DNA from: Eubacterium sp. 1001713B170207_170306_E7
GTDB lineage: Bacteria > Bacillota > Clostridia > Eubacteriales > Eubacteriaceae
Assembly (NCBI RefSeq): GCF_015547515.1
Contig: NZ_JADMVE010000007.1
Span: 62,001 to 126,000, forward strand
Length of the DNA: 64,000 nucleotides
Reading direction: 5' to 3'
Of this stretch, positions 19,626 to 27,157 are shown one piece after another; within the stretch, counting starts at the first letter, position 1; each line of letters starts with the position of its first letter. Under the pieces are notes generated by a model. That model worked only from the letters and a program-made list of their open reading frames with translations, was not told the DNA's origin and searched no databases. The position numbers were made by a program, and so were the translations under genes.

Positions 19626-20225
19626 TTATGGTGTAATCGCCATGATAATACCTGTATAAAGCCAGGTGCTCCCGGCAATCGGGGTTCCGATGGCTAAAAT
19701 CTGGTCAGGCTTTTCCTCGCCGTCCTCGGGGTCATAAACAGTGCAGGGGTCGCTCTGCTCCTGTTTTTTTATGAGCATGTAATGAAGAAACAGGTCGCAG
19801 TCGGTGAGGTCAAAGGTGTTGGCTGTAATGCTGATGGTGTACTGCCCGGGCTGCAGCGTCTTGAGCGGATCCTCGTGGGTAAAATTAAACAGAGGCTTCT
19901 GATCGTGGGTGTTGACAGACCGGATGAGCGCGGTAAACGGTGGATCGACGGGCATAAGGCACGTTGGCTTTAGTCCGCACTTCTTAAGATATTCAGCCAT
20001 TTTTAAGGGAGAGCAGGAATTTGCGTTCATGATCCCGCTTAAGGGATAGCCGAATTCATGGATGCTTTCGCCAAATCGTACTTGACGGTGAATCTGGTTT
20101 GCGAAAGCGATGGCGTCATCGGAATTGTCATAAGGGCAGGTGTGGTTTTCAAGCTCCCACAGCAGATAGGCAATGGAAAAGGCGCCGCAGTTGTATGGCT
20201 GGTCCTGTTGAATATATTTTGGCAT
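19626..20225 (-). CDS. C39-like (papain-fold) cysteine peptidase domain protein, orphan
   Basis: Product of 199 residues without signal peptide or membrane segment. The start QQDQPYNCGAFSIAYLL places Cys13 with an upstream Gln as in C39-type peptidases. FLHYMLI (His148) and TVYDPEDG (Asp165) give the matching His and Asp of a Cys-His-Asp triad. These landmarks are visible; activity is inferred. No double-Gly leader peptide gene or ABC exporter is nearby, so a bacteriocin-maturation role is not supported. It begins 13 bp after the end of the AbrB/BTAD regulator and is probably co-transcribed with it. GGAGAAGA precedes the start. Confidence 0.65.
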   Translation of the reverse strand: MPKYIQQDQPYNCGAFSIAYLLWELENHTCPYDNSDDAIAFANQIHRQVRFGESIHEFGYPLSGIMNANSCSPLKMAEYLKKCGLKPTCLMPVDPPFTALIRSVNTHDQKPLFNFTHEDPLKTLQPGQYTISITANTFDLTDCDLFLHYMLIKKQEQSDPCTVYDPEDGEEKPDQILAIGTPIAGSTWLYTGIIMAITP

Positions 20226-20238
20226 TTAATCTTCTCCT

Positions 20239-20822
20239 TTAGGGTTCGGTTATGATTTCCAGTTTTTTCTGGTAAATATTCAGCTGGCTGGCTTCTTTAC
20301 ACTGCTGCATCAGGATTTCAAGCAGCTCGGCACAGGATAGTTCGTAATGGGCTTCATGGGCAGAGATCCAGTTATACGGGGCTCCGGCCAGCAGCGGTCC
20401 AATGTAAAGATCGACTGCTTTCTGGCAGTTCTCAAGCTGTGAGCGGTTGAGATAGAGCACTTCAAACTCCCAGAGATCGCTGTAAATCTGGGTAGTATCC
20501 AGACCCAGGGTGCCGCGCTGTGTGATGAGAGGGATGCAGATCCCCTGCTCGCGCAGATTTTTAAACCATTCCAGCGTTTTATACAGGCAGTACATGGCCT
20601 GGCTTTCGGTACGGCCGGGCCAGATGGTCTCAGCAATTCTTTTCTTTGAAATGAGATTGCCTTTTTCACAGATCAGATAGGTCAGCAGCTCTTCTGCCTT
20701 TCTGGACTGGAGAACTAAGGGCTTTTGTGCATAGAAGATGCGCAGGGGGCCAAAGCAAAAGACGGCCAGCAGCTTGTCCGTCTTTTGAGATAAAAAGGGT
20801 TTGCCGGCATACTGGTGAATCC
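20239..20822 (-). CDS. winged-helix plus BTAD regulator part, reached by a -1 frame change from the AbrB part
   Basis: Read from the slippery site onwards, this frame encodes about 194 residues: a PhoB/OmpR-like winged helix (VFCFGPLRIFYAQKPLVL, RKAEELLTYLI, then KKRIAETIWPG) followed by a BTAD-type helical repeat region (QKAVDLYIGPLLAGAPYNWI). This is the SARP regulator layout. Its own frame has no ATG, GTG or TTG before the winged helix; the first ATG (20595) would remove half of the DNA-binding domain. Upstream, the AbrB domain lies in the neighbouring frame and runs straight into it. So it is one gene in two frames, either by frameshifting or by mutation. Confidence 0.75.
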
Positions 20823-20972
20823 GTTTTTTTTCATAAGATGGTTGACGGGGATCAAGCAGATGGTATTTCCAATAATTTCACATTCTAAAGCGTCGCCGGT
20901 GCGAAGCTCTAACTGTTCCACGACGGAAGAAGGTAGTGTGATTTGTGACTTTTCCCTGAATTTTATATTCAT
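20715..20972 (-). CDS. AbrB/SpoVT-type DNA-binding N-terminal domain (frame 1 of a two-frame regulator)
   Basis: ATG 20972 opens an 85-codon frame. Residues 1-48 form a swapped-hairpin AbrB domain (FREKSQITLPSSVVEQLEL, GDALECEI, CLIPV). After MKKN the frame leaves the conserved protein and reads out of phase with the winged-helix region, ending at 20715. A gene product limited to this frame would be an AbrB domain with a nonsense-like tail of 35 residues rich in Pro, Ser and Cys. A TATAAT box for this strand lies at 21054-21059. AAGGGACC stands before the start. Confidence 0.75.
   Translation of the reverse strand: MNIKFREKSQITLPSSVVEQLELRTGDALECEIIGNTICLIPVNHLMKKNGFTSMPANPFYLKRRTSCWPSFALAPCASSMHKSP
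20823..20829 (-). other. slippery heptamer A_AAA_AAC joining the AbrB and winged-helix frames
   Basis: In the AbrB frame the codons are ATG AAA AAA AAC. The phase A_AAA_AAC is the canonical one for -1 ribosomal slippage. After slipping, the next codons are CGG ATT CAC CAG, which enter the winged-helix/BTAD frame exactly. A one-base loss or gain in this A run is the simpler alternative. Confidence 0.65.
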
Positions 20973-21293
20973 AATATGAAGGTCCCTTTCTTGATACTAT
21001 TAATAAGGTTTGTCAATTTTATGCACGCATTATTAAAATAACATACTAATTGTATTATATCAGCAAAAATTGGAAGTTTTTTTGAATGATTTCAGAATTT
21101 AACGAATTCGCAGTAAGTTCACCGATGCTTGTTGCGTCCATTACCTTTTTACGCGATAAAAATTTAAACATTTACATCTAAAACATGAGAAAATTACAAT
21201 AAAAGAAAAAACGATTGCCTTTTTTCGACATTCTTAGGAAATACTTAAAACATAAAAATAGCGGAGGATGTTAATCCACCGCTATTCATATTA
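20973..21293 (-). other. 321-bp AT-rich intergenic region
   Basis: It contains the TATAAT for the AbrB/BTAD gene (minus strand, 21054-21059) and the terminator of the MBL-fold gene (21252-21286). Nothing else coding is seen. Confidence 0.6.
21252..21286 (-). terminator. Rho-independent terminator of the MBL-fold gene
   Basis: AATAGCGG / CCGCTATT arms with U run on the minus strand. Confidence 0.85.
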
Positions 21294-26416: not shown

Positions 26417-26449
26417 TTCATTATTTCAAATATAGAAAGAGGTATTAAA

Positions 26450-27157
26450 ATGCAGAAATTAGAACAGTTATATGAAGGCAAGGCTAAAAAAGTTTTCAAA
26501 ACAGAAGATCCGGACCAGTTTATCATCGAATACAAGGATGACGCAACCGCAGGAAACGGCGAAAAAAAAGGCACCATTGTGGGCAAGGGCGTCATCAATA
26601 ATAAAATGACCGCCACCATTTTCAAAATGCTGGAGGAACAGGGGATCCCGACACATTTCATCGAGCTGTTATCAGACAACGAACAGCTGGTAAAGGCAGT
26701 CACCATCTTCCAGCTGGAAGTGATCATCCGCAACACCGCTGCCGGCTCCATCTGCAAGCGCCTTCCATTTGAAGAAGGACAGGCTCTTGAAACACCCATC
26801 TTTGAATTCTGCTATAAGAATGATGACTACGGCGATCCTGTCATCAACGACAATCATGCCACTGCCCTGAAGCTGGCAACCCAGGAAGAGCTGGACGCTA
26901 TCCGTGAAATGACCATGAAGATCAATGATATCCTGAAAGCATATTTCCTGGAAAAGGGCATTAACCTGATCGACTTCAAGATTGAGTTTGGTAAAACCAA
27001 CGACGGACAGATCGTTCTGGCCGATGAAATCTCACCGGATACCTGCCGCTTCTGGGATGTCAATACCGGAGAAAAACTGGATAAGGACCGTTTCAGACGC
27101 GACCTCGGCGGTATTGAAGAAGCTTACGAAGAAATGTTAAAGAGAGTTAACGGCTAA
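26450..27157 (+). CDS. purC: SAICAR synthase PurC
   Basis: Product of 235 residues, which joins CAIR and aspartate using ATP. Landmarks are YEGKAKKV at the start, the [11 protein letters not shown] segment near residue 85, [12 protein letters not shown] near 120, and [12 protein letters not shown] near 190. Length and motifs are standard. It follows purE by 33 bp with AAAGAGG before the ATG. A GC-rich hairpin lies after it. Confidence 0.95.

Follow-up and report, generated by a model that had tools for sequence, protein, structure and literature searches.

In Eubacterium sp. 1001713B170207_170306_E7, a putative transcription regulator is encoded in two overlapping reading frames that meet at a run of eight adenines. 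Is this a fused gene that was broken by an indel or a read error, or does slippage join two halves that are maintained in different frames? The question was addressed in the window, i.e., the whole 64,000-nucleotide stretch of DNA that was analysed, and by comparison with related loci from other Clostridia.

Layout of the locus and identity of the two halves

The AbrB-type ORF starts with an ATG at 20972 on the minus strand, preceded by AGAAAGGGA. The features of the locus are as follows.

21030 to 21102, minus strand: conserved upstream block with a TATAAT-like -10 element at 21059-21054 (by-eye comparison)
20715 to 20972, minus strand: frame-0 ORF, AbrB/MazE-type swapped-hairpin DNA-binding domain and tail, giving an 85-aa short product
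20823 to 20829, minus strand: slippery heptamer A_AAA_AAC in the phase of the AbrB frame, kept in phase in 4/4 Eubacterium species
20773 to 20823, minus strand: inter-domain linker in the -1 frame, RIHQYAGKPFLSQKTDK, predicted to be largely disordered, with -1-frame codon constraint
20488 to 20772, minus strand: SARP/OmpR-type winged-helix DNA-binding domain in the -1 frame without its own start codon (AlphaFold and structure matches)
20239 to 20487, minus strand: BTAD (helical bacterial transcriptional activator domain) in the -1 frame (AfsR/EmbR structure matches)
19626 to 20225, minus strand: 199-aa downstream gene, 13 nt past the regulator, with the RBS AAAGGAG, present in 4/4 species

The AbrB frame reads ...VNHLMKKN and ends at a stop at 20717-20715. 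The codons ATG AAA AAA AAC occupy 20834-20823. The preliminary description was right in placing an A8 run at the frame junction; the run is exactly eight and spans 20831-20824, not 20823-20831, since 20823 is a C. From 20877 to a TAA stop at 20241-20239 the -1 frame stays open; it encodes RIHQYAGKPF...ITEP, and the part from its upstream stop to the winged helix contains no ATG, GTG or TTG. If the reading frame shifts by -1 on A_AAA_AAC, the result is a continuous protein of 244 aa with zero residues missing. The arrangement proposed earlier, with an AbrB ORF from 20972, a start-less winged helix and BTAD in the -1 frame, the exact A_AAA_AAC phase within ATG AAA AAA AAC and a join that loses no residue, was therefore verified on the minus strand. 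A second A8 run is present in the window at 26562-26569, inside a plus-strand open frame (26417-27154).

The AbrB domain covers approximately residues 1-46 of the frame-0 ORF, and the remaining tail is non-conserved. This half matches Pfam PF04014 (E 6e-6, 26.5 bits, cut-off 24.7), as it does in 4/4 Eubacterium species, and its family profile matches AbrB-family entries of the PDB (AbrB and SpoVT structures, E 2e-5). The second half is barely seen by Pfam (Trans_reg_C 0.004; BTAD E 0.1 in one member). The AlphaFold model of the -1 product has a pLDDT of 90.4 and matches AfsR (8hvr) near full length with a Foldseek E of 5.6e-8, and EmbR (2ff4) with a Z of 15.2 over 176 of 194 residues. Residues 17-112 of the model match OmpR/PhoB-type domains with Z ~7, and the remaining OmpR-type structures match in the winged helix part only (Z < 8). 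The -1 half is thus predicted to have the SARP fold, a winged helix plus BTAD, and resembles the SARP family members AfsR and EmbR (Z ~15 to both). Both domain assignments of the preliminary description agree with these results, AbrB by Pfam and PDB sequence matches and the SARP part by predicted fold. In the -1 product, pLDDT is below 50 at residues 1-9 and 11-13; as the residues just past the slip site are predicted to be disordered, the slip falls in a linker.

AbrB-WH-BTAD genes (WH, winged helix) in a single open frame were identified as paralogues in two of the Eubacterium genomes, G003 (L028) and G002 (L029), and in other Clostridia (L079, L081, L092-L094, L134). These proteins have the same domain order and about 204-252 aa, and the longest A run in their linkers is 3-6 (L028, L029, L079, L092-L094). 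Their existence shows that the AbrB-SARP fusion is a real domain architecture. Beyond the AbrB-WH-BTAD proteins, the nearest sequence relatives are REC-WH-BTAD response regulators, which also predominate in evenly drawn class, family and phylum samples besides the split and in-frame AbrB cases. Compared with SARP proteins and the Firmicutes REC-winged helix-BTAD proteins, the regulator carries an N-terminal AbrB/MazE domain in place of REC or of nothing, and its gene is split between frames.

Conservation of the split in Eubacterium

Four Eubacterium species were compared (G000, G001, G002 and G003), comprising the window and three congeneric orthologues whose fused proteins share 88, 87 and 73% identity with it. 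A conserved A8 and split frames in relatives had been named beforehand as signs of programmed slippage; all three orthologues are split, including those in the single-contig genomes G001 and G002, and two of the three carry the A8. The site ATG AAA AAA AAC is found in G000, G001 and G003. The most divergent species, G002, has GTG GGA AAA AAC, an A6 produced by two A-to-G substitutions with no indel, and also gains an overlapping G_GGA_AAA. Because the run was shortened by substitution and not by an indel, the phase and codon of A_AAA_AAC are unchanged. The heptamer lies at the same codon in 4/4 species, at an offset of 143 (2 mod 3) from the ATG. The preliminary description regarded an uninterrupted frame with six or nine A as refuting slippage; an A6 does occur, in G002, but the frame there is still split, so slippage is not refuted.

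The dS between the Eubacterium species is 0.3-3, and the median dN/dS is 0.05 for AbrB and 0.13 for the -1 part, indicating strong purifying selection on both. Over the 18 codons past the heptamer, the -1 frame is coding-like (pS 0.16-0.68, pN 0.05-0.21) and frame 0 is not (pS 0-0.33, pN 0.09-0.32). Judged from these substitutions, the conserved coding frame switches at the heptamer. Across the four species, the frame-0 product measures 85, 99, 85 and 68 aa in total. The long open frames of the window comprise 20,238 codons and contain four in-phase copies of A_AAA_AAC; the chance expectation per 55-codon overlap is ~0.011 for in-phase A_AAA_AAC and ~0.05 for any in-phase A_AAA_AAN. At the level of sequence comparison, the decisive support is the conservation of the split, the phase and the heptamer in 4/4 species, not the rarity of the heptamer.

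Split genes in other Clostridia

A class-wide search revealed a second split gene in G414, a genome of the genus g224. A total of 77 g224 genomes, which are drafts and in some cases incomplete, were searched, and 12 species were found to carry the gene. Shared assembly errors are unlikely, since the 12 species agree. All 12 genes are split with an exact, same-phase A8 in the linker, and none is in frame. The A8 forms eight consecutive invariant columns with variable flanks on both sides. Elsewhere in these genes, 120 of 194 lysine codons are AAA and 74 are AAG, and 0/5 of the other invariant lysines are AAA in all 12. The AbrB half of the g224 genes is too divergent to give a Pfam match, and profile-profile comparison relates it to the AbrB halves of the other genes with a probability of 96.6.

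The second half of the g224 genes occupies either of two frames. In eight species it is in the +1 frame, where the A8 is followed by T and the BTAD frame reads AAA AAA ATT/ATC/ATG. The other four species have -1 genes with A_AAA_AAC_TAG (two species), A_AAA_AAC_CGG and A_AAA_AAG_TAA. In the g224 gene tree, the -1 state arises twice within the +1 genes, through length changes outside the run. Genes of two further lineages are split at a C7, and both have a +1 second half. One is from G487 (L078:1489-1495; TCC CCC CCT, in a locus of 35% GC), and the other is from G1282 (L135:1487-1493; ATC CCC CCC TTT), which also has the in-frame paralogue L134. C or G runs of at least seven occur 15 times in the 474,430 bases of all loci compared, and some of these duplicate the two C7 sites. 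About three changes of split label were counted on the family tree, and the splits may have a single origin or several.

These comparisons bear on three alternatives to slippage. The first is decay or sequencing error, in which a homopolymer indel broke a fused gene; this was the dull alternative of the preliminary description. A8 and C7 runs are indeed prone to errors and indels, but the split is kept in four Eubacterium species, including all three congeneric orthologues of the window gene, and in 12 species of another genus, dN/dS is well below 1 on both sides, and the phase of the heptamer survives substitutions. Unless many independent assemblies share the same error, an indel or read error is rejected as the cause of the split, and we consider it hardly credible. 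The second alternative is phase variation at the DNA level, in which the run would change length at replication and the fusion would be ON in some cells. Contingency loci typically have a homopolymer at a frame junction, but a hypermutable tract should vary, and here the run is exactly eight in 15 of the 16 genes with an A run over deep divergence. None of the orthologues that carry the run is in frame, and the frame changes in g224 come from indels outside the run. Phase variation is thus very unlikely.

Alternatively, the two halves could be separate proteins, with the second translated alone by coupled or internal initiation (at ATT, ATG or another codon) past AbrB. In the second frame of the g224 +1 genes, the base that follows the A8 creates ATT, ATC or ATG (ATG in L089 and L091), and the overlap contains ATG in L078 and TTG in L135. 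By contrast, no ATG, GTG or TTG is available to start the second half in 3/4 Eubacterium species, nor at the corresponding place in the g224 -1 genes. The sole candidate start in G002, a GTG, falls within the first strand of the winged helix. No SD was seen, fused one-frame homologues exist, and separate translation would leave the conserved A8, C7 and phase unexplained. We regard it as improbable, though less so than phase variation; in the +1 genes, translation may conceivably begin internally at ATT or ATG.

Proposed slippage and its possible role

The split and the slippery site are kept in four Eubacterium species and a similar split occurs in other Clostridia, so the arrangement appears deliberate and not an error or a broken gene. 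With a probability of roughly 80%, the regulator is a single gene in which the AbrB and SARP halves are held in different frames and slippage at a conserved linker site joins them. We infer slippage itself, its mechanism and its level. Normal decoding would give the short AbrB-domain protein, and a fraction of slippage events would give the 244-residue protein with AbrB, winged helix and BTAD (SARP-like).

In Eubacterium, the join would most likely be a -1 ribosomal shift at A_AAA_AAC, to which RNA-polymerase slippage on the A8 may add. The ribosomal shift is favoured because the conserved unit is a phase-correct 7-nt heptamer and because the A6 of G002 is below the seven-A minimum for polymerase slippage in IS1447. 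Both A_AAA_AAC and G_GGA_AAA are inefficient shift sites in E. coli; IS elements do use A_AAA_AAC, and for one proven case no stimulator has been established (PMC4066793). Stimulators were searched for at the present locus. Pseudoknot-free folding of the four Eubacterium species revealed no compensatory pairs that would indicate a conserved downstream RNA structure, and the z-scores of the downstream fold are -0.01, -1.36, 0.09 and 0.13, near zero in 3/4. A conserved downstream hairpin was rejected, as the strong window stem AAAAGACGG...CCGTCTTTT is not shared by the other three species. No upstream SD-like or GGAG-like stimulator was seen in Eubacterium. Stimulators of -1 frameshifting (downstream structure, upstream SD-like sequence) are common in bacteria and not obligatory. 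Since A_AAA_AAC is weak in E. coli and no stimulator was found, the ratio of short to long product, and the 'switch' itself, remain putative. RNA-seq and Ribo-seq data of E. limosum have been deposited (GSE97613; PMC7873083).

Transcriptional slippage on the A8, with transcripts carrying one extra A, might instead join the frames in Eubacterium too. The A8 is common to three Eubacterium species and 12/12 g224 species, and the +1 or -1 frame of g224 with a constant A8 fits both shorter and longer transcripts. In Firmicutes, IS1447 slips in both directions on an A9 (about 16% each) and needs at least seven A (PMC6211511), and slippage is also assumed for IS elements with A8 (PMC1088944). The A6 of G002 (GGGAAAAAAC), however, is too short by the IS1447 measure, and the gene of this species is still split and under selection. 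For Eubacterium we therefore hold transcriptional slippage to be possible but clearly less probable than a ribosomal shift at the heptamer. In g224, RNA-polymerase slippage on the A8 would be the better explanation, serving both the +1 and -1 frames. A -1 ribosomal shift is unable to serve the g224 +1 genes, so a single mechanism may not cover the family; two-way polymerase slippage would explain a fixed run with a variable frame. The ribosome might also slip by +1 on AAA-A or CCC-C. The common denominator across the lineages is slippage in the linker. For the family as a whole, we lean slightly towards a junction that is repeatedly out of frame at A8, A6 or C7, where two-way slippage of the polymerase and/or the ribosome controls the activator dose and selection acts to keep the run and the out-of-frame condition, irrespective of which frame it is.

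The AbrB part would dimerise and bind DNA, and the SARP part would bind DNA and recruit RNA polymerase, as AfsR does. Given AbrB dimerisation and DNA binding together with SARP activation, slippage could cap the activator dose and set how much of it is made relative to the short form, a potential competitor of the long form. Likely targets would be the regulator's own promoter and the adjacent gene. This short/long role is inferred from AbrB dimerisation, AfsR-type activation and the analogy with IS OrfA/OrfAB. As its tail is non-conserved, the short form may be a mere by-product.

Transcriptional slippage at a U run in Shigella MxiE (mxiEa/mxiEb), an AraC-type activator, was reported by Penno 2005, as described in PMC1088944. 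Like the regulator studied here, MxiE is an activator in two overlapping frames whose long form arises via slippage. However, MxiE belongs to another protein family and its mechanism is RNA-polymerase insertion, whereas in the present gene a complete DNA-binding domain forms the first half and the Eubacterium signal is an A6-A8 with an in-phase -1 heptamer. It is the only precedent found for a transcription regulator split by slippage. The IS3-family OrfA/OrfAB (-1 shift, A_AAA_AAG-type) and IS1447 (A9) likewise yield a short product and a long fusion from an A run; in contrast to them, the Eubacterium locus is no transposon, encodes a SARP-type fusion and has no stem-loop or SD stimulator that was found. 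Slippage-split activators and short/long slippage products are thus already known, and no report of an AbrB/SARP case was found. A literature search revealed no link of AbrB/BTAD genes or Eubacterium limosum to programmed frameshifting, and the main text of the GeneTack paper does not mention AbrB, SARP or Eubacterium. To our knowledge, evolutionary support for programmed slippage exists for only a few chromosomal, non-mobile genes of bacteria. In the present case, the comparative evidence spans several lineages, and the in-frame homologues serve as natural controls. With a genus in which the same A8 precedes a +1 or -1 second half, ribosomal slippage could be told apart from polymerase slippage. 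Such genes would tend to be labelled as frameshifted pseudogenes by annotation pipelines, so the class may be under-counted.

By inspection, the block at 21030-21102 is conserved across G000, G001 and G003 and largely in G002, and is likely a candidate promoter or autoregulatory operator of the regulator. The downstream 199-aa gene is probably co-transcribed with the regulator and is possibly its target or partner. It has no significant Pfam or NCBIfam family (PF03412 at E 0.058 is below the Pfam cut-off) and its AlphaFold model has a pLDDT of 39. Its N-terminal NCGAF motif resembles C39/papain-like cysteine peptidases. The second gene 3' of the G487 regulator (L078:2801 onward) starts with MCGAYGLAYWKW, like NCGAFSIAYLLWE of the window downstream gene, and the two loci perhaps share a cysteine-peptidase-like partner.

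A protein of ~203 aa without a Pfam or NCBIfam match (MATPYVLNVDHQGTSCGDFCIYQTY... in g224) is encoded 3' of the split g224 regulators (L077, L082-L091, L096) at about 2150-2770. The same protein is encoded 3' of the split G487 gene (L078) and of the in-frame G530 gene (L079). At several g224 loci it is followed by a gene weakly similar to adenosine-deaminase-related growth factors. The in-frame paralogues L028:1495-2238 (G003) and L029:1288-2031 (G002) adjoin a DUF2589 gene (PF11655, E 6e-43) and a 168-aa partner. The surroundings of these two paralogues suggest that the regulator family sits beside small accessory-protein operons.
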